Virus record (IMG/VR): IMGVR_UViG_3300046513_000348
Coordinates: 1-64,000 of that record
Reading direction: 5' to 3' (one strand)
From: a virus
DNA: 64,000 nt
This document shows positions 39,446-58,327 of this stretch, one piece after another (position 1 is the stretch's first letter; each line of letters opens with the position of its first letter). A program made the position numbers and the translations under genes. The notes below the pieces were generated by a model that worked only from the letters and a program-made list of their open reading frames with translations, did no database searches and was not told where the DNA came from.

Positions 39446-41743
39446 TTAGCCTTCCTTGTCAAAAAGTTTTCGAAGGGCCTTGATGGCCTTTTGTGCGGTG
39501 GACTTAACTGCCATCGCGACGCGTTTGTCGAACCGTGGCTTGACCTTGATGTGGACTTCACGATCCTTGTTGACGTAAGCATGGCGATGCTCGATGTCGG
39601 GATCCTTATACTTCTGCCACACAAAGCGATAGCCGTTGCAGGTGATGATGTGTTTGAAAAGTTGCAGGGCACGGTTGTTACCCAGCGGGACGTACTTGCG
39701 GTCGACACCTCGTTCGATGTTGGTAGGTTGCGGAGAATCCAGCAGCGAGTAGACGTATTCGCGGTGAGTAGCGAGGCTATTGTTGCGGTCCAGCAGGTCC
39801 GCGGCCACACGACCACCACAGTACGACAGGATGATTCGCAGTTCGGCTTCGGAGATCGCCTTGACTGCCTGCATCTTAGCCGGACTGGAATACTTATCCG
39901 AACTCGTGACTTGACCCAACACACCCATGTGTTGAACCTTTGCCGTTGGCGTAGCGATCCAGTCGTCCGAGATCTTTTCCAGGAGCATGAAGTACTTGTG
40001 TCCCAGTTCGACCTCTTCTTCACTCCAGACCATGTTACCCGAGAAGCCACGATATTGAACACGACTAACACGAGGTTTGAAGTGTTTCTCACATTGCCAC
40101 CAGGCCCAACGCCAAGGCGTCATCTGGTCAGTCGGACTCAGGATGTGAATGCACGGATACTTGAGTAGCCAGGACAAGTGCAGAGCACGCATCTTGGGAT
40201 CATCGAACGTTGCGCTCGAATAGTTCTCGTACATTGCTGGCGACAGGATCTGATACAGATGCGTCAGACGCTTCCATACGTGATCGTAGTCATCCTGATG
40301 CTTCGGCATGTCTTCGAGGATCTGCTTCTCGCTCGGCGCTTCATCTTTCGGGATGTCGAGCGTGGTACGGATCTCGCCCAGGAACTCACGAGTCACCTGG
40401 TTGAAGTACGGTTCGTACAAGCCGCCAAAGTTCTGACGGTTGAACGGCGATTCTGGCGACATGACGACTTCAGCACGAACGCCGAACTCATTCATCGGCA
40501 TGTCTTCATCGTCCATGACCATACAGACAACACCCTTGTCACCTGCACCGCCGGTTGCTTTGTTACCGATGTTCGGAGTGACGGTGTACTTGATCTTGAA
40601 CTCGACGCGCCAGTCATCGATCGGTGCTTTGTGATACAGCTTCTGCACCACGTCGCCGATGTCATAGTCGGTCATTGCACAAGCTTCGAGCACCAGGCGA
40701 TGGAACTCGTCGGTCACGACCATCTTGCCGCCGTGCTTACGATACAGCTCGTTGTACGTGTCCAGGATCTCGCGATAGAAGCGATCCGTCAACTCCTTGT
40801 AGTGTTCCACTTGACTGTTCATGCCGTTTGGCAGCGAACGATTGTCGTGGTACACCATGATGTCGATAACGGTTCCGTTACCGAGATTCATCATGCCATT
40901 GTTCATGGTAGTGAATTCACCAGGAGCACGAGTGTACAGCTTCTCGTCATACATCATGTCGAGCATCATCGTGTCATACAGACCCATGCTCGTCACGCCC
41001 AGTCGCTCATCGTACTCGCGAGTTGCCATCAGCAGACCGTCAGGACGAATGATCTCGCCGACATCACGGAACAGTTTGACCTTGTTCTCGTCGCCGAACA
41101 GATTCAGTGCGAAACGGCTTTGACCCCACGAACCAACTCGGGTCTCGATCATGTCGAACTTCATTTTCTGCAAGGCCGACTTCGAGATCAGAATACCGTC
41201 TTCAGATACCGCTGGATGCGATACATTGCCGAAGACGAGATTCAGCCCAAAGCCATAACCACCACCTTTCTTGACCGATGGCGAAACGAGGAATTCTGTA
41301 CCAGCCTCGAAAACTGCGCCCTTGGTGATTTTATGATACGCATCAGTCTTCCGGTAGGCGAAGCCGAAGTACTGGTGTTCCAGGCTGTGATCGCGGAGAT
41401 CCAGCACGCCGACACGACGAGTGTCGAGTTCGGTATAGATGACGATCGTTTGCGGATTCTTGATCGTCGTGTTGAGGACTCGAGATTTTGGAAAGCGTTC
41501 GATGACACGGTTGATCTCGATATCAGCCGGTGCCTTTACTCCGAACGTGTATTCTCCGAAACGGGCCTCCGTGCCCGTTTGCCAGTAGCGTTCTTCGGAT
41601 CCTGAAAGGACGAGTGCTTGCGGAAGGTGTCCGGCAAACATCACTTTACGAGGACCAGAGTTCACGTCTACCCACGGATCGTTTGCATTGTTCGATAGGA
41701 ACTGTGCGTGCAGTTCGCTGGGATGACGTTCAAGTAGACTCAT
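39446..41743 (-). CDS. RNA polymerase beta C-terminal subunit
   Basis: 765 aa from ATG 41743 (TTGGAACC upstream); a GTG at 41782 in frame would add 13 residues. IGNKATGGAGDKGVV near residues 392-406 matches the catalytic GDKMAGRHGNKGV of bacterial beta, and MPMNEFGVRAEVVMSPESPF matches [20 protein letters not shown] just after it. An earlier SEDGILISKSALQKM matches the FEDSILVSE region. The beta N-terminal lobe is not seen in the window and is probably encoded elsewhere. It is the first gene of an operon with beta' C, with an early-type promoter about 60 bases upstream. Confidence 0.92.
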   Translation of the reverse strand: MSLLERHPSELHAQFLSNNANDPWVDVNSGPRKVMFAGHLPQALVLSGSEERYWQTGTEARFGEYTFGVKAPADIEINRVIERFPKSRVLNTTIKNPQTIVIYTELDTRRVGVLDLRDHSLEHQYFGFAYRKTDAYHKITKGAVFEAGTEFLVSPSVKKGGGYGFGLNLVFGNVSHPAVSEDGILISKSALQKMKFDMIETRVGSWGQSRFALNLFGDENKVKLFRDVGEIIRPDGLLMATREYDERLGVTSMGLYDTMMLDMMYDEKLYTRAPGEFTTMNNGMMNLGNGTVIDIMVYHDNRSLPNGMNSQVEHYKELTDRFYREILDTYNELYRKHGGKMVVTDEFHRLVLEACAMTDYDIGDVVQKLYHKAPIDDWRVEFKIKYTVTPNIGNKATGGAGDKGVVCMVMDDEDMPMNEFGVRAEVVMSPESPFNRQNFGGLYEPYFNQVTREFLGEIRTTLDIPKDEAPSEKQILEDMPKHQDDYDHVWKRLTHLYQILSPAMYENYSSATFDDPKMRALHLSWLLKYPCIHILSPTDQMTPWRWAWWQCEKHFKPRVSRVQYRGFSGNMVWSEEEVELGHKYFMLLEKISDDWIATPTAKVQHMGVLGQVTSSDKYSSPAKMQAVKAISEAELRIILSYCGGRVAADLLDRNNSLATHREYVYSLLDSPQPTNIERGVDRKYVPLGNNRALQLFKHIITCNGYRFVWQKYKDPDIEHRHAYVNKDREVHIKVKPRFDKRVAMAVKSTAQKAIKALRKLFDKEG

Positions 41744-41799
41744 GTTGGTTCCAATCGGTTTTAAAAAGTATTGCTTAGCCACTACTAGGCAATATCCAA

Positions 41800-41836: not shown

Positions 41837-42178
41837 ATGCCATCTCTGCTTTCCACGATCGACGGCTTCGGGCCGCAGATCTATTACAGTCAAAAATTCA
41901 GACAGATGATCGAGGATCACCTGTTAACGATTCGTGCCATGCCAACGAACATTGTGCGTGAGCTTGGCGAAGATGAAGGCGCCATTCTCAATCGTTACGT
42001 GGGCGATTTCTACGGTTTCCTGACAGCAATGAACTACGATCGTCGCTATCATTGGACGATCATGCGTATGAACGGTTATCGTTGCCGGTTTGATCTGGAT
42101 CTGACGCTTCAGCGTTTGATTCTGCCAGACTGGTCTTACATCGATAAGCTCGCTCAGCTGTGCAAAGAAAAAAGGTAG
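41837..42178 (+). CDS. Hypothetical protein
   Basis: 113 aa, helical, moderately basic. The ATG follows GGACTGTT. It is a single plus-strand gene diverging from the RNAP beta operon and ending at a strong bidirectional terminator, so it has its own promoter in the 50-base AT-rich gap. No family is recognised. The position next to the polymerase genes is suggestive but not evidence of a shared role. Confidence 0.72.
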   Translation: MPSLLSTIDGFGPQIYYSQKFRQMIEDHLLTIRAMPTNIVRELGEDEGAILNRYVGDFYGFLTAMNYDRRYHWTIMRMNGYRCRFDLDLTLQRLILPDWSYIDKLAQLCKEKR

Positions 42179-42237: not shown

Positions 42238-43881
42238 TTAGCGGCGACCACGACCGCGGTAACGGTCACGATCTTCGTAGCGGTCATCGTAACGATCGTC
42301 GTAACGATCGGATACGTAACGGTCACGGAGGTCACGAACACGACGACCATTGCCACGGTCATCGCGGGAATCACGACGACGGCCATGGCGGTCACGATCT
42401 TCTTCGTCACGCAGTGCTGCACGCAGAACTGGGTTATCGTCGAAGATGTCACCACTGCGACGACCTTCACGATCATCACGATCGTCGCGGTCATCACGAT
42501 CATCACGATCACGACGGCTGCGACCACGGTCGCGATCACGGTCATCGTAATCGTCATCGCGATCACGGCTGCGACCACGATCACGATCTCGGTCACGTTC
42601 GCGATAACGACGCTCTTCTTCATCGCGTTCACGACGACGACGATCGCGTTCTTCCTGCTCTTCACGTTCACGCTCGCGACGCTCACGTTCGGCAGCTTCA
42701 CGCTTACGGCGCTCTTCTTCACGCGACAACTCGCTATCGCGCATTACCGTACGACCGCTGCTGACTGCCCGATCAGAACTTGAAGCGGAGTGTGCCTGAT
42801 CGGGCTTGGTCTTTCCCAGGCTGTCCGCCGTCGACGATGAAGTCGCACCGAGAGTCATGCGGCCACGAGGACGAGGAGCTTCTTCCTGTTGAGACGGACG
42901 CTCTTCACGAACTTCTTCGCGACGCACGTCATCCCGACGTTCGCTGCGAGTAGACTCAGGCCGACGCTCTTCTTCGACTTCACCCTCGTCACCGCGGTTG
43001 AGGTTCGGAATCGCACCAGCCAATTTCTCGACCTCGCCTTTGTTGTCGAAGATCTCGATCCAGACGCCCATGTCCTTCGGGAATTCCAGGAGCGAAGGCA
43101 TGTCGACCAGGTTCATGTACGGCTGCGCCGATTCGACCAGCTGATCGACGACTTTGAAGGTTGCACGGATCAGTGCTTCCATGAACGGCGCCGAGTTCGA
43201 GTTGATGCCCGCGTTGTAGGCGTCCTTGTTGTCGATCTCAGGGAAGATGAAGCGATACAGCGCGATCAGCATTTCGCGATCTTTGCCGGAGATCTTCACG
43301 CCATTGATCTTCTCTTCACCAGACATCAACTGCTGATAGATCGGGAAGGTGACGATTGCAGCACGGCCGTAAGTCTGGCCGCCGACCATGCCGCCCTTCT
43401 TGATGAAGATGTTGATGAATTGGTCGAGATCGTTGCGAGCACGAGTCTTCTTTTGCAGATCGTCAAAGCTGCTGACGGTCTTGTCGGACACGAGCTTCAG
43501 GGCATCCAGGACGCGACCTTGTTCGGTGGTCAGGTTTTTCTGGTTAGCCTGATCGTGAGCGATTGCGATCAGTTCCTTCATGAGGTAAGCGATGGACGCG
43601 TTCAGGCGCATCACAAACTGGTCACGCAGGTTTGCCAGGATATCGGAGATACCCAGGTTGTAGGATTCACGCAGCGGGTGGAAGCCGATGCGATTGTCCT
43701 TGCTCTTGATCTTCATCTGCTCACGAGTCGGCAGGAACACGCGTTTCCCGTCGATCGTTGCAGGGCGTTCGTCGTCGCCGATCACCAGCGAGACATAGCC
43801 GTCCTCGTCCACTTTCAGCCAGCCAATGGCCAGCAGGATTTTGTAGTAGTCAAGGACCAAGTCGCGATAACTTTTACTCAT
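42238..43881 (-). CDS. Mixed-charge (RD/RE-rich) protein
   Basis: 547 aa. Residues 1-300 are an ordinary globular helical domain with no recognised motif. Residues 305-400 are disordered. From about residue 395 to the end the sequence is dominated by Arg-Asp, Arg-Glu and Arg-Arg (RDRDRDRGRSRDRDDD, RDDRDDRDDRDDR), then SDRYDDRYDDRYEDRDRY and RGRGRR. This resembles mixed-charge domains of eukaryotic nuclear-speckle and splicing proteins, which drive condensates and nuclear retention. The tail motif is shared with the 655-aa protein at 56360. The underlying DNA is a degenerate CGATCACGA-type repeat. It may bind RNA/DNA or organise a phage compartment; this is inference. Confidence 0.85.
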   Translation of the reverse strand: MSKSYRDLVLDYYKILLAIGWLKVDEDGYVSLVIGDDERPATIDGKRVFLPTREQMKIKSKDNRIGFHPLRESYNLGISDILANLRDQFVMRLNASIAYLMKELIAIAHDQANQKNLTTEQGRVLDALKLVSDKTVSSFDDLQKKTRARNDLDQFINIFIKKGGMVGGQTYGRAAIVTFPIYQQLMSGEEKINGVKISGKDREMLIALYRFIFPEIDNKDAYNAGINSNSAPFMEALIRATFKVVDQLVESAQPYMNLVDMPSLLEFPKDMGVWIEIFDNKGEVEKLAGAIPNLNRGDEGEVEEERRPESTRSERRDDVRREEVREERPSQQEEAPRPRGRMTLGATSSSTADSLGKTKPDQAHSASSSDRAVSSGRTVMRDSELSREEERRKREAAERERREREREEQEERDRRRRERDEEERRYRERDRDRDRGRSRDRDDDYDDRDRDRGRSRRDRDDRDDRDDRDDREGRRSGDIFDDNPVLRAALRDEEDRDRHGRRRDSRDDRGNGRRVRDLRDRYVSDRYDDRYDDRYEDRDRYRGRGRR

Positions 43882-43901: not shown

Positions 43902-45341
43902 TTAAAAACCGAACCCGCGACCGCCGCCACCACCAGCAATATCGCTAGGCAGGAACTCGTCGAAGAGATCGTTGAAGTCACGTCCCATCTTGCGAACGTC
44001 ATCGAGCGAGTCGGTAACGATCGGAGATGCAAGTGCATTGGTAAACACAGGGATAACGAACCGGCCTTGGTTCTTGCCATCCCAGAACATCGTGAAGTCC
44101 ACCTCGCCGAATGCACGGCAAGTTACGTTCAGGCCGACATCGAAGTCGTTACCCGCGGTGATCGGCATCAGGAGCTCATCGATGATGCGATCTTCGAACA
44201 TGTCCAGGAACGGACCCAGCTCCATATCCTTCACGAACGAACGAGCGTTGGACGGAGTGAACGCCCACTTGTGACCGAGTTCCTGGTTGTGCACCTGGAA
44301 GCTGATCTGGTGGATACCGCATTCCATCATCAGTGCCGGGACGGCGATACCGACGAGGGCTGCGATGCGGTCTTCTTCTTCCTGGCCGTCGAGACGGTTG
44401 TACTCGTCGTAACGCGTAATGGCCTTTGCGTCATTGTCCAGCAGCAGCGGATTGGTACGACGCTCTGCATCCGGATCGATCTTCAGCAGGTCGTCGAAGG
44501 TGAAGTTATCCACCGTCACGTTCTTGCCTCGGATGTTCGAGATCTGGCGCAGGAAGATGTCGTCCGATGCATACGACTCTTGCACATAGCCTTGTGCGGT
44601 TGCGTTGATGTCTGCAACTGCATTGCCGTAGTCCGAATTCTCCAAGGCCTTTTGACGGCTATTGAGAACGCTGGCCATGAAGCGCGAGCCCAGGCGGTTG
44701 GAAGTGCTGGACTTGATGGCGTTCTTCGACAGCGTAGTACGCAGATCGGTAACGTCATCGACGAGTTCCATGGTCTGCTCGGAGTCGAGCGACGAGAACA
44801 CGTCTTCAGGACGCATCGTGAACAGACGATCATGGCGACGACGCAGGCCTGCGTTTTCGCGATCCGACAGAACGTCAGCGGTGTGGCTCGGAACGTACAC
44901 ACGCTCGTAACGACCGCTGCGGGTCTTTACGGTTTTCTCGGTGAGCATGAAGGTCGAGTTGACGTAGAACTCCATGTCATGATCGACGTGACGAGTCGTG
45001 AAGCCCACCGAATTGGTGTAGCCCATGATGACTTGCTTCAGGCGATCGCCGGTGCCGACTTCGATCATCAGCGTCAGGATGAAGCGGCCGCGACGGGTAC
45101 CCCAGCCATGCGGGATGTCGATGATGCCACGGGTCTCGTAGTCAGGAACGATGAATTGGTTTGCGATGTTCGCCAGGATGGAAGGAGTGAAACGACGGGA
45201 TTTCGCAAAGCGTTCCTCAATGCGATCAATCACGCCGCCTTTGACTTCGGTAACGTAGGGACGAAGGAACTGATCGGAGTACGTGCCCGATTCGATGATG
45301 TTCAGTTCTTCAACCCAGATTTTCAAGTCTTGCCTTTTCAT
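43902..45341 (-). CDS. Hypothetical protein with Gly-rich C-terminus
   Basis: 479 aa. No catalytic motif is recognised. The last residues are GGGGGRGFGF. It is internally mixed alpha/beta with moderately strong codon bias. The ATG follows AAGGAAGAAGC. It lies 16 bases after the 521-aa gene and 20 before the mixed-charge protein, so the three probably form an early operon driven from the promoter near 46963. The role is unknown. Confidence 0.7.
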   Translation of the reverse strand: MKRQDLKIWVEELNIIESGTYSDQFLRPYVTEVKGGVIDRIEERFAKSRRFTPSILANIANQFIVPDYETRGIIDIPHGWGTRRGRFILTLMIEVGTGDRLKQVIMGYTNSVGFTTRHVDHDMEFYVNSTFMLTEKTVKTRSGRYERVYVPSHTADVLSDRENAGLRRRHDRLFTMRPEDVFSSLDSEQTMELVDDVTDLRTTLSKNAIKSSTSNRLGSRFMASVLNSRQKALENSDYGNAVADINATAQGYVQESYASDDIFLRQISNIRGKNVTVDNFTFDDLLKIDPDAERRTNPLLLDNDAKAITRYDEYNRLDGQEEEDRIAALVGIAVPALMMECGIHQISFQVHNQELGHKWAFTPSNARSFVKDMELGPFLDMFEDRIIDELLMPITAGNDFDVGLNVTCRAFGEVDFTMFWDGKNQGRFVIPVFTNALASPIVTDSLDDVRKMGRDFNDLFDEFLPSDIAGGGGGRGFGF

Positions 45342-45357: not shown

Positions 45358-46923
45358 TTAAAAGTTGTACAAAGAGAGGAATTCTTTATTCCGCTGCTGT
45401 ACGTGGATGACGTATTCCGCCAATCTGATCCGAATGTCGTACCCCACTCGGTATGTTTTATTTGCAGAGCTTCCTCGGAACTCTGCGATCTGCTCATCGG
45501 AAAGGTTCAGGAACCAGGTGTGATCGGAGAGATCGTCACTCAGCTTCTTAATTTCCTCGATTGCTTCGTTGGTTGGGTTCGCCACCTTCTTGGTCGGATG
45601 TCGACGGTAGAAGGGGTAGAGCTCATTGAGTTTATCGACGAGCGCCTTCGGGATGTGAGCACGAGACTCATTACCGTAAGCACCATACCCTTCGGCATTC
45701 ATGCTGCGTGCAGTTGGAATGCCCGCCAGATCCTTGAAGCCCGTGTTCCAGAGCACGAATTGTGCAATACCGGCCAGGCGCAAGTTACTAGCTTTGTTGA
45801 TGTCCCACAACGCCCTTGCGGAGATGATGGGGCTGACGACCCAGCGGATCAGTTGGATTTGACATTCTTCCACGACATGGGGGCTCAGTTGGTCTGCGCT
45901 TTCCAATGCCCGGTCGAGATCGGCCATTTCCTGTTCCGTCAGTTCGTTCTTCAGCAACAGACGTGCCGCGATCTGGTAGACGTACTCGGTGTACTTCTCC
46001 ACGACCGTGAAGTCGCCAGGTGGAACCAGCGGCTTGTTCTTGTACTTCTCAGCACGAGAAGACGAGTCCTCGGACGAATCGTCCTCACCCGGATTGAGCT
46101 TTTCGAGGATCGCATTCTGATGGCTTTCATTCTGCGACAGCCGATTGCGAAGCGTCTTGTGCACAACCTGTACCAGGTGCGTATCCGTCGGCTCACGCGT
46201 CAGGCTTGCAACCACCAGGAACCGAACCAGGATGTTGGCGATCAGGTTCGTCAAGAACGTTTCCGAACCGATGCCGTTGATGGACGAACGAATGTCGATG
46301 TCGTTCTGCTTGACGTTCTTTGCCACATAGTGGTTCAGACGTTCCATCGCCGGACTCGAAATGAACTTCGTCTTCGAGATCAGGTAGTAAGCATTCAGGT
46401 CACGGAAGGTTGCTCCCGATTCCTTCTTGGTGGCTTCCACGAACTCGCCCCAGATTGGAGAGATGACGCGAAGCTTGATCACCATGAACACCAGTTCCCA
46501 ATAGTCCGAGACCAGATAGGTCTGCTCACGGCTACCAGGCTTTTCGTGCGAATACTTGTACTCGACATCGAGTTCTTCCGGGATCCAGATACCGCCGTGG
46601 AAACGCGTCCAGCGTTCGAAGTCTTCGGTGTCGTGCATATCCAACAGCTCTTCGACAACAGGACGAAGCTGAAGGATCAGGGAATTCACCTGGAAGGTAC
46701 CGTTGAAGATTTCCTTGGCTTCACGATACAACTCGAAGACGCGATCCTGCATCTCCGGATCTTGACGATTCCAGAATTTATTCAGCTGGGTGAAAGGTTC
46801 GTACGATCCTTTCTTAAAGGCCTGTTGGTAGGCTGACCCATTGAACTCGAGCGTTTCACCGCGGTGCTCGACGTGGATCATGCTCAGACCACCACCGCCT
46901 GCATGGAGAAACTTTACTTGCAT
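45358..46923 (-). CDS. Hypothetical protein, possible fifth subunit of the non-virion RNAP
   Basis: 521 aa from ATG 46923, chosen because AAAAGGAGCGTT precedes it; the frame open further upstream crosses the promoter. It is all helical in prediction-like reading, with an acidic Ser-rich insert (GEDDSSEDSSS) near residue 290. No known domain. I raise the phiKZ gp68-type non-virion polymerase subunit because of its size, its early-type promoter with exact TATATTAC, and its place among RNAP genes. There is no sequence motif to support that, so it remains a hypothesis. Confidence 0.55.
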   Translation of the reverse strand: MQVKFLHAGGGGLSMIHVEHRGETLEFNGSAYQQAFKKGSYEPFTQLNKFWNRQDPEMQDRVFELYREAKEIFNGTFQVNSLILQLRPVVEELLDMHDTEDFERWTRFHGGIWIPEELDVEYKYSHEKPGSREQTYLVSDYWELVFMVIKLRVISPIWGEFVEATKKESGATFRDLNAYYLISKTKFISSPAMERLNHYVAKNVKQNDIDIRSSINGIGSETFLTNLIANILVRFLVVASLTREPTDTHLVQVVHKTLRNRLSQNESHQNAILEKLNPGEDDSSEDSSSRAEKYKNKPLVPPGDFTVVEKYTEYVYQIAARLLLKNELTEQEMADLDRALESADQLSPHVVEECQIQLIRWVVSPIISARALWDINKASNLRLAGIAQFVLWNTGFKDLAGIPTARSMNAEGYGAYGNESRAHIPKALVDKLNELYPFYRRHPTKKVANPTNEAIEEIKKLSDDLSDHTWFLNLSDEQIAEFRGSSANKTYRVGYDIRIRLAEYVIHVQQRNKEFLSLYNF

Positions 46924-46962
46924 AACGCTCCTTTTGAAAAATTGTCTAAGTACTTCAATGCA

Positions 46963-46990
46963 GTAATATATCGCTGTATTTTCTTTAAAC
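46963..46990 (-). promoter_or_regulatory. Early-type promoter (TATATTAC core)
   Basis: On the minus strand an exact TATATTAC (46963-46970) preceded by an AT-rich block (reads AAAATACAGCGA next to the core). It is 40 bases before the 521-aa gene and just downstream of the SSB terminator. Confidence 0.7.
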
Positions 46991-47000
46991 GATAGTGTTT

Positions 47001-47026
47001 GCACAGCGGCCCGAAGGCCGCTGTGC
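47001..47026 (-). terminator. Terminator of the SSB gene
   Basis: An 11-bp perfect stem (GCACAGCGGCC) closing a TTCG tetraloop on the minus strand, 23 bases after the SSB stop codon. The downstream T-run is short, but the C(UUCG)G loop is highly stable. Confidence 0.75.
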
Positions 47027-47049: not shown

Positions 47050-47814
47050 TTAGAAGGGCATGTCGTCGTCGTCGCCGAAGCTGCTGCCGCCGCTATTGCC
47101 ACCACTGTAGCCACCCGACGAATCGTCGTTGCTGCTGTTGTTGTTTCCTTTCCAGCCACCGCCGCCACCGCCACGGTTGTTGTTGTAACCGCCGCCACCG
47201 CCGCCGTTACCCTTCCAGCCACCGCCACCGCCGCCTTGCTGCTTCGGTTCCGGATGCTTGTAGGTGACCAGGGAGACGCCGACCATGATCTTCGAGATCA
47301 GGTTGTACACGCCGCGTGCGACCAGGACCGAGATTTCCGCTTCCGTCACCGGCTGGCCGTTGACTTCGAAGTTGTGGAAACGGGTCGGTGCGAACGGGAA
47401 GTAGATCTTCGGACGGCTCTGGTTTTCCAGGTCTTCGACCATGATGTACACGACGCCGTCGGGACGCTTGCCGACTTCGACTTTCGCCACGTCGACCGGA
47501 CGCTTGTCTTGACCGCGAATCGACTTGCAGATGACGCTCGCTTTGATCGGGTCCTTGCTGCGGGTAACCATGTCCAGCTGTTCGAGGTGAACTTGCAGGT
47601 CCAGGATACCGAACTTGGCCTGGATACGGCCGAAGTTGTTTTCCTTGTCGCTCGGGTCGTTGGTGTAGACCGTGATGCCAGGGTTGTCGTTGTTCGCGTA
47701 GTACTGCAGCGTCGACCATGCCTTGATGCCCTTGACGGGGCAAGGAACGGACAACTGGATTTTCTTGGAATCGAGCAGGTTCTTGTCCCGCGCTTTGGGC
47801 TTGAAGTCAGCCAT
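47050..47814 (-). CDS. ssb: Single-stranded DNA-binding protein
   Basis: 254 aa. Residues 15-185 form a beta-rich domain consistent with an OB fold. Residues 193-245 are Gly/Asn/Ser-rich and flexible (GGGGGGWKGNGGGGGG). The protein ends in the acidic tip DDDDMPF, equivalent to the DDDIPF tip through which bacterial SSBs recruit partner enzymes. It coats single-stranded DNA during replication and recombination. Codon bias is strong, fitting the high copy number needed. The ATG follows GAGGC. The tip is the decisive evidence, since the OB core is diverged from E. coli SSB. Confidence 0.88.
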   Translation of the reverse strand: MADFKPKARDKNLLDSKKIQLSVPCPVKGIKAWSTLQYYANNDNPGITVYTNDPSDKENNFGRIQAKFGILDLQVHLEQLDMVTRSKDPIKASVICKSIRGQDKRPVDVAKVEVGKRPDGVVYIMVEDLENQSRPKIYFPFAPTRFHNFEVNGQPVTEAEISVLVARGVYNLISKIMVGVSLVTYKHPEPKQQGGGGGGWKGNGGGGGGYNNNRGGGGGGWKGNNNSSNDDSSGGYSGGNSGGSSFGDDDDMPF

Positions 47815-56359: not shown

Positions 56360-58327
56360 TTACCAGCGGCCGCCGAAACGCTCGTCCGAGCGGTCCGAGT
56401 AGCGATCGTCGTAACGGTCGCGACCTTGACGCTGGTTGCGGTACAGGCCGCCCGAACCAGGACGGTTCAGGATCTGGTCGATGTTGCCGTAGGTGGTACG
56501 GAAACGATCGTTGCCATCGCGGCTCGACGAGGTCGGGTTGAGCGACAGCTTGCAGCGGGTGATGGCTTCCAGCAGGGCCTCGTTGAAGCCGAGGGTGAAG
56601 TTGAAGCGCTGGTGGTAGCCGGTGATCACCGAGGTCGGCACGAAGTCCTTGATGATTTCGTAGCGTTCCGATTGGGTCAGGACGTTGTCTTCGTTCGAAG
56701 TCGCAGCCATGCCCCAACGCTGGATGATCTCCAGGTCTTCTTCCTTTTCCGGGCGCAGGAAGTTCAGCAGCGCCAGGTAGTCGAAGTCACGCAGGTCCAG
56801 ACGCTGGCCGCCCGATGCCTCGGTGTAGTAGCCGGCGTGGATACGCTCGATGTGCGGATCGATGATGGCTTCCGAACGATCGTACAGGTCTTCAAAGTGG
56901 CCATTGGTCAGCACGCAGGCCGCATCGTAGATACGACGCATTGCGCTTTCATTGCCCTGCGCAGCTGCCAGCAGGTCGATGTGCTGCCAGGTGCTGGCGC
57001 CGCATTCCGGAACGTCGATCGAGAAGATGATGCCCGGACGGACGGTTGCACGCAGCAGTGCTTGACGCTTGGCCGTGGTGAACGACGAGGTTTTGGTTTC
57101 CCAGCGTTCGCCGAAGCCACGTTCCATGTCCTGCAGGTTCGGCTCGATTGCCAACGCACCGATGTTGCGCGGATCGTCTTCACCCAGGGACTGGTTCGGC
57201 TCGAAGGCACGCATCACTTCCTGCGACTCGCCCATGGCGTTCATGGTCGCCATCGCCAGCAGCATGGTCGTCGGCGAGAAGTCGACGGTGTCCACGAAGG
57301 TGGTGATGAAGCGCAGCGCGTACAGCTGATACTCTTCGCCCGAGATGCGGCGATCGCGGCGGCTGTACAGGTCGTTGCGGTTGTTGGCGCCTTCGGCCGG
57401 CGCGTAGACGAAGTCGAAGTAGCCACCCAGGCGCGAGATGCGGGTGCCGGTCACCAGCTGGTCGATCGAGTCGCGGCTGTTGCGGCCCTTGGCTTCGCGG
57501 GACTGCAGATCCACGATCACGTCGGCACGGGTCGGCATGTGGCCGCGGTCGAAGATGTGGTTCTGGCGATGCTGGACGTGCACGCTGTTGTAGGTGTCGA
57601 CGTTGTCGTCGGCGCTCAGCACCAGTGCGATCGCGTCCGGATCGTTGCGGTCGATGAAGGTCTTGATCGCGGCGAATGCGTTCTTGACGCAGTCGGCGAT
57701 TGCCTGCGGGTCTTCCTTGGCGGTCGGGAAACCTTCCGAGATGACTTCAGCGTCGGCCGAGAACAGGTTCTTGTTGCCGTAGTGGCGTTCCAGAACGTCC
57801 TTGATGACCTGACGGGTCTTGTTGTTGTAACCATCGCCCGGGACCTGGACGATGAACACGCGCTGGCCGCGATAGCTTTCTTCACGCGGACGCAGGGTCT
57901 CGGCCGAACCGGCGAGCAGGAAGGTGTGGTAGCCCACGCCCAGGTGCTCTTTGCCGCGGCGGGTGCCGGCGACGACCAGCAGCGAGAACGGGATACCGGC
58001 CGACGAGGCGTCGATCGGGAACACGCTCACGTTCAGCATGTTGTTGTCGTCTTTTGCCGGCATTGCTTCGACGAAGTCGCGGCGGAACGATTCCAGCGCT
58101 TCGGCGGTGTTGCTCATCGCCAGCGGCGTCGGGTTGGCACGGCCGATGCTCGACAGGGATGCGAAGCGGGACGGTGCATTGGTTTCGCTGCGACGCGATT
58201 CTTCACGGCGGCTGCCGCGATCTTCTTGTTGACCGCCACGATCGGTGTTGCCACCGGATTGACGCTCTTGCGCTTCTTTCATTGCCGAGCGAACTTGGGA
58301 TTGACGGTCTTGACCTTCGATTGCCAT
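56360..58327 (-). CDS. Highly expressed early protein, candidate nuclear shell protein (chimallin)
   Basis: 655 aa with the strongest G/C-ending codon bias in the window and an early-type promoter about 105 bases upstream. Residues 1-60 are a disordered Arg/Gln/Glu-rich leader. Residues 65-610 form a large globular body with no enzyme motif. The C-terminal tail ends RDRYDDRYSDRSDERFGGRW, closely resembling the tail of the mixed-charge protein at 42238. Length (about 600-660 aa), early promoter, abundance and a flexible C-terminal tail match what is known of ChmA/gp105-type shell proteins. I cannot confirm family membership from motifs, so this remains a candidate. Confidence 0.5.
   Translation of the reverse strand: MAIEGQDRQSQVRSAMKEAQERQSGGNTDRGGQQEDRGSRREESRRSETNAPSRFASLSSIGRANPTPLAMSNTAEALESFRRDFVEAMPAKDDNNMLNVSVFPIDASSAGIPFSLLVVAGTRRGKEHLGVGYHTFLLAGSAETLRPREESYRGQRVFIVQVPGDGYNNKTRQVIKDVLERHYGNKNLFSADAEVISEGFPTAKEDPQAIADCVKNAFAAIKTFIDRNDPDAIALVLSADDNVDTYNSVHVQHRQNHIFDRGHMPTRADVIVDLQSREAKGRNSRDSIDQLVTGTRISRLGGYFDFVYAPAEGANNRNDLYSRRDRRISGEEYQLYALRFITTFVDTVDFSPTTMLLAMATMNAMGESQEVMRAFEPNQSLGEDDPRNIGALAIEPNLQDMERGFGERWETKTSSFTTAKRQALLRATVRPGIIFSIDVPECGASTWQHIDLLAAAQGNESAMRRIYDAACVLTNGHFEDLYDRSEAIIDPHIERIHAGYYTEASGGQRLDLRDFDYLALLNFLRPEKEEDLEIIQRWGMAATSNEDNVLTQSERYEIIKDFVPTSVITGYHQRFNFTLGFNEALLEAITRCKLSLNPTSSSRDGNDRFRTTYGNIDQILNRPGSGGLYRNQRQGRDRYDDRYSDRSDERFGGRW

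Follow-up and report, generated by a model that had tools for sequence, protein, structure and literature searches.

The gp70 locus of a nucleus-forming jumbo phage

The window analysed here is a 64-kb stretch of a 218,660-bp virus record that also encodes chimallin (ChmA), the nuclear shell protein, at 56360-58327 on the minus strand. Because chimallin is encoded, the record is assigned by gene content to a nucleus-forming jumbo phage, in line with the earlier note, which had expected a phage that builds a nucleus-like compartment. Its closest named relatives are the Burkholderia phages FLC6, FLC8 and SURPRISE13 (Chiangmaivirus and kin). In a six-frame search, the record of one further relative, L052, shows one in-frame TAG in the chimallin frame (G002:C1:219973-221892), which may be a genuine stop or may reflect a sequencing error or an effect at the end of the frame.

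The gene under study (42238-43881) encodes a protein of 547 amino acids. The earlier note had placed it at the correct coordinates, but it lies on the minus strand; the plus-strand reading of the same interval contains stops, and plus-strand open reading frames over the locus were rejected as an antisense artefact of the R/D codons. Directly upstream lies an orthologue of PicA/Imp1 (43902-45341, minus strand), an import factor (PMC11087766), preceded in turn by an orthologue of phiKZ gp68, a sigma-like subunit of nvRNAP (45358-47004, minus strand), and by an orthologue of the RNA-binding protein ChmC/Imp6 (47050-47814, minus strand), the latter two named according to PMC12571901. An nvRNAP beta-type subunit is encoded downstream (39446-41782, minus strand). 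In pairwise comparisons the PicA-like protein matches PhiPA3 gp63/PicA (E 2e-25) and the gp68-like protein PhiPA3 gp62 (E 2e-39), and the ChmC-like protein was recovered with E 4e-19 in a one-genome search. The order ChmC-like, gp68-like, PicA-like, gp70 and nvRNAP beta subunits is that of 201phi2-1, phiKZ and PhiPA3, and the window thus retains the arrangement gp67-gp68-gp69-gp70-gp71/73-gp74 that characterizes the phiKZ gp70/PhiPA3 gp64 family. Furthermore, the gene product matches phrog_3520 (E 1.9e-55), and its N-terminal domain aligns pairwise with PhiPA3 gp64 over 257 residues (E 5e-36, 28% identity). Given the shared gene order and the pairwise E-values, we identify the gene from its sequence as an orthologue of phiKZ gp70, PhiPA3 gp64 and 201phi2-1 gp126, a core protein of nucleus-forming phages. 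Each of the 31 gp70-bearing records that were tested also carries ChmA.

Pfam contains no domain matching gp70, PicA, ChmC or chimallin, and a single-protein scan of viral contigs returned no matches. No paper on the function of phiKZ070/gp70 was found in the literature searched, and phiKZ070 is not among the ASO top hits in the part of that table (PMC12571901) covered here.

Several further features of the genome were recorded. A 113-aa ORF (phrog_3455; 41837-42178, plus strand) is convergent with the gp70 gene, and most phages examined likewise have an ORF of about this size on the opposite strand after gp70. The ChmC orthologues (47050-47814 on the minus strand of the window, and loci L031-L048) end in a Gly/Asn-rich tail, in most cases followed by an acidic tip such as DDDDMPF (the form in the window), DEDIPF or FDESIPF. 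This tip resembles the C-terminal tip of bacterial SSB (xDDDIPF) and by analogy could serve for docking partners. A 717-aa protein encoded outside the window (phrog_36323; L113:8735-10885, minus strand; record 172735-174885) contains an internal RGG/RD-rich stretch, RGGRDRDRDERYDDRDRGGR, which is the clearest other R/D-like stretch seen in the genome. A small protein without a PHROG or Pfam match (L114:2868-3263, minus strand; record 186868-187263) ends in an RGG/NGG-rich tail.

Architecture of the window protein

Residues 1-297 (42991-43881, minus strand) form a conserved domain that closes with the motif (I/V)PxLxxN(E)G typical of the family. AlphaFold models residues about 1-297 as a single confident alpha/beta domain (pLDDT 92.9, pTM 0.91) and not as the ordinary helical domain previously described. 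The PDB yielded nothing significant for the gp70 protein by sequence and no match for the N-domain by fold (best E 0.73). In the viral fold library, every relative with a named source belongs to a jumbo phage, and the top match in the BFVD fold search is from Ralstonia phage RSF1. The N-domain shares 63-66% identity with those of FLC6, FLC8, SURPRISE13 and the IMG/VR contigs L051/L052.

The remainder of the protein (residues 298-547; 42241-42990, minus strand) is a charge-balanced, low-complexity tail with 76 R, 3 K, 47 D and 35 E, giving a net charge of -3 among 161 charges, an R/(R+K) of 0.96 and a kappa of 0.084. R, D and E make up 75% of residues 383-547 (61 R, 40 D and 22 E of 165) and 76% of the best 150-residue stretch (387-536), so that the earlier description of about 150 C-terminal residues as nearly all Arg with Asp or Glu captured the dominance of these residues and was slightly strong in its 'nearly all'. 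The dipeptide repeats it reported are likewise present, with RD and DR occurring 23 times each in residues 298-547. The best 60-residue stretch of the protein is 90% R/D/E, and this richness is far from chance, since no other open frame anywhere in the 218,660-bp record exceeds 52% over 60 residues. RS occurs only four times in the 250 tail residues, without the long RS/SR runs of SR proteins, and the FG dipeptide of nucleoporin repeats is absent from the protein. At the DNA level, GC at third codon positions is 0.76 in the N-domain but 0.42 in the tail (window 42241-42990), where CGT and GAT are preferred, perhaps easing mRNA structure or using abundant tRNAs.

Rather than a uniform R/D domain, the tail is a series of segments: a linker with an island, an E/R helix, an R/D stretch, a second island and an R/D/Y/G end. 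Island 1 (residues 338-361, PRGRMTLG...SLGK; 42799-42870, minus strand) is kept among close R/D relatives, although its SLGK part is absent from the close relative L054. It is followed by an E/R-rich helix of ~68 residues (378-445; 42547-42750, minus strand) with pLDDT mostly above 90 and favourable i+3/i+4 charge pairs, which is modelled in a form compatible with either a single alpha-helix or a coiled coil. In the full-length AlphaFold model, disordered R/D dipeptides (446-475; 42457-42546, minus strand) separate this helix from island 2 (477-494, GDIFDDNPVLRAALRDEE; 42400-42453, minus strand), a conserved short segment predicted as a weaker helix at 479-498 between disordered R/D stretches, and a disordered R/D/Y/G stretch completes the protein (500-547; 42241-42384, minus strand). 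Residues 310-377, 445-475 and 501-547 have pLDDT <50 almost throughout in the same model.

Tail chemistry and selection in the gp70 family

We compared 64 distinct family members from named phages and IMG/VR. The ~290-residue N-domain is conserved across these relatives, and in 64 of 64 the (I/V)PxLxxN(E)G motif (IPxLxGNEG) is followed by a C-terminal tail of ~110-300 residues whose absolute net charge per residue is about 0.06 or less. The last 100 residues have a mean entropy of 3.19 bits and an ILV content of 0.077, compared with 3.96 bits and 0.222 in the last 100 residues of PicA. Most tails are clearly low-complexity; this is least marked in a few members that include XC32, Aphrodite1, Miami and Goslar, with near-normal entropies of 3.85-3.98.

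In contrast to length and neutrality, tail composition varies widely. The charged fraction is two-humped, with 0.53-0.65 in 17 R/D members and 0.22 or less in the other 47. The earlier note had named poor conservation of the composition in close relatives as a refutation; instead, R/D tails are kept in seven close relatives and two further lineages. The first clade comprises the window protein, phages FLC6, FLC8 and SURPRISE13 and four IMG/VR contigs; outside it, R/D tails are found in Klebsiella Kp24, in Serratia PCH45 and Moabite/Totoro, in Erwinia PhiEaH1, and in the pair of Vibrio pVa-21 and L090. Other tails, labelled here from a reading of their composition, are Q/M/P/Y/N-rich and prion-like (phiKZ, PhiPA3, D6, Simmy50 and SA002), Gly-Trp- or RGG-like (LucasX, FLC9, L069 and L075) or, in Phabio (L093), FG-rich with five FG including GLFG, TLFG and SLFG. 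The tail of PhiPA3 gp64 is Q/M/P-rich with 5% charged residues. From these comparisons, length, disorder and neutrality seem to be conserved while the sticker chemistry is exchanged between lineages. Co-variation with the tail of ChmC was considered and rejected, as the ChmC tails that could be read are rich in Gly and Asn whether or not the phage has an R/D tail on gp70, and the switch in chemistry therefore looks specific to gp70. Neither an exchange of tail chemistry across this family of shell-associated proteins nor a disordered-tail reading of it was found in the literature searched, which for the former excluded the primary papers on ChmC and Imp.

On the tree of PicA and the gp70 N-domain, the R/D state requires three changes, two of them forced by well-supported branches. 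A single origin of R/D tails is disfavoured (AU p=0.015), a result to be read with caution as the tree has long branches. Within the R/D group, tail dN/dS is 0.06-0.25 in close pairs with both rates computable and 0.28 in the more distant pair of the window protein and L051, with N-domain values of 0.01-0.25 in the same comparison. Charge-neutral changes (RD, DR or RE) account for many of the tail indels. The R/(R+K) ratio is 0.76-0.97 in R/D tails versus 0.31-0.46 in the N-domains of the same proteins, on which basis a GC-driven excess of Arg was rejected. Across nine representatives, charge balance is tighter than expected from coin-tossing (sum z2 0.69, 9 df, P=1.2e-4), with shared ancestry ignored and with the reservation that duplication of RD units would by itself preserve balance.

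These observations bear on whether the tail could be a functionless by-product of short DNA-repeat expansion. Tandem Repeats Finder does report arrays with units of 6-51 bp inside the tail, as such an origin would predict, but they are short and imperfect (72-91% matched), synonymous changes per site far exceed replacements (dN/dS 0.06-0.28) and the R/D composition recurs in separate lineages. Pure repeat slippage was rejected on account of the arrays and the purifying selection, and the by-product explanation as a whole is scarcely credible. Taken together, dN/dS, charge-neutral indels, the preference for Arg over Lys, charge balance and the short, imperfect arrays argue that R/D composition is kept at the protein level.

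The same data allow a more modest role to be weighed, in which the tail is a flexible, soluble spacer carrying short docking motifs (PRGRM..SLGK and GDxFxDNPxLR) and its bulk composition serves solubility and reach only. Both islands are kept in close relatives while the R/D sequence drifts, NP(F/Y/A) motifs recur in many relatives across tail chemistries, widely differing bulk compositions are tolerated and an ER helix is a typical rigid spacer. However, several members have no NPx motif, and the Arg-over-Lys and charge-balance biases go beyond a spacer's needs, so that we regard this role as rather unlikely.

A proposed disordered layer at the phage nuclear shell

Within the family, shell localisation has been shown for PhiPA3 gp64 only, whose tail is non-R/D: it is labelled by both ChmA- and RecA-miniTurboID, its GFP fusion is found at the nuclear shell, it co-purified with ChmB/gp2, its expression is early, and virions were found to lack it (PMC10643120). 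A review names PicA, ChmC and Imp3 among the proteins identified in the PhiPA3 shell study (PMC12908238). By elimination from that list, Imp3 could be gp64. Another gene, gp59, is also possible.

The earlier note had suggested that the R/D tail is a compartment-targeting signal, and R/D domains do direct eukaryotic proteins to nuclear speckles (PMC9324279). However, in the orthologue that reaches the shell the tail is of the Q/M/P type and 5% charged, and import into the phage nucleus reads folded surfaces rather than terminal signals or tails (PMC12908238), making a nuclear localisation signal very improbable. If an uncharged tail does not keep an orthologue from the shell, it should be the folded N-domain rather than the tail that anchors gp70, either on the shell itself or on shell partners (ChmB, PicA, ChmC or ChmA).

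We hypothesize from the sequence comparisons, with about even confidence, that gp70 is docked at the shell and that its long, near-neutral tail builds a disordered, multivalent layer at an import/export site near PicA and ChmC. This layer would concentrate client proteins and/or mRNA, or hold partners via the two short embedded helical motifs. In the lineage of the window it would consist of R/D mixed-charge sequence projected by the charged helix, with Q/M/P/Y-rich, Gly-Trp/RGG-like or FG-like sequence doing the same job elsewhere; as other lineages use other chemistries, the conserved property would be a long, neutral, disordered and cohesive tail and not the R/D residues themselves. Against such a layer count the predicted helicity of a 68-residue part of the tail, its even charge mixing (kappa 0.08) and the non-R/D tail of the orthologue localised to the shell. 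The earlier note had also considered a condensate scaffold. In vitro, however, (DR)n peptides with evenly mixed charges formed no separate phase on their own, unlike blocky ones (PMC9324279), which makes a cohesion or client domain that depends on partners more likely than a scaffold sufficient by itself.

Alternatively, the tail might mainly be an RNA-contacting arm that, together with ChmC and nvRNAP, gathers newly made phage mRNA on the inner side of the shell so that it can be exported, like the RD/RE/RS and RGG tails of eukaryotic mRNA proteins. The gene order ChmC-gp68-PicA-gp70-nvRNAP fits this idea, and R/D tails, like the Gly-Trp/RGG-like ones, contain arginine and belong to classes known to contact RNA. 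Most tails in the family, however, are low in charge or Arg (mostly 0-5% R) and would be expected to bind RNA poorly, and the R/D tails themselves are net neutral and evenly mixed; we consider this function unlikely.

Traffic of mRNA out of the phage nucleus and of proteins into it is not yet understood, PicA and ChmC being the main known players. A third conserved shell protein is encoded near both, and in separate lineages its tails look like the sticky tails found in nuclear bodies and pores of eukaryotes; gp70 would therefore allow a test of whether traffic in a viral 'nucleus' is under the control of a disordered layer. The larger point reaches beyond the R/D tail to the family-wide swap of chemistry on a conserved shell-associated protein, a natural tail-swap experiment on how condensate chemistry evolves under constant function. 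A broader form of the layer hypothesis, which we advance tentatively and hold to be doubtful, is that the gp70 layer is the functional counterpart of eukaryotic FG and R-MCD phases, with length, disorder and neutrality kept, R/D, Gly-Trp/RGG-like, prion-like and FG stickers freely exchanged, and each phage nucleus acquiring its own selectivity.

Among known systems, FLC6, FLC8, SURPRISE13 and L051/L052 share the R/D tail and islands of the window protein, but have leucine heptads in the charged helix that the window protein lacks. The Chimalliviridae shell-associated core proteins PhiPA3 gp64, phiKZ gp70 and 201phi2-1 gp126 (PHROG 29928 and 3520) share its N-domain, gene neighbourhood and combination of folded domain and long tail; their tails are Q/M/P/G-rich instead of R/D mixed-charge, and the charged helix is an addition of the window's lineage. 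Like the R-MCDs of eukaryotic nuclear-speckle proteins, the window tail balances R with D/E, strongly prefers Arg over Lys, has a low kappa and is largely disordered, which bears out its initial description as eukaryote-like mixed charge. It is not homologous to them, however, being partly helical, attached to a shell-associated fold of a bacterial virus and replaced by other chemistries in relatives. FG-nucleoporins are comparable as work-alikes only, without homology and with no FG in the window tail, in that they too place disordered tails on a protein of the nuclear boundary, and the Phabio relative (L093) carries GLFG, TLFG and SLFG. The range of tail chemistries in the family suggests by analogy that nucleus-forming phages arrived anew at the types of sticky disordered tail known from eukaryotic nuclei.
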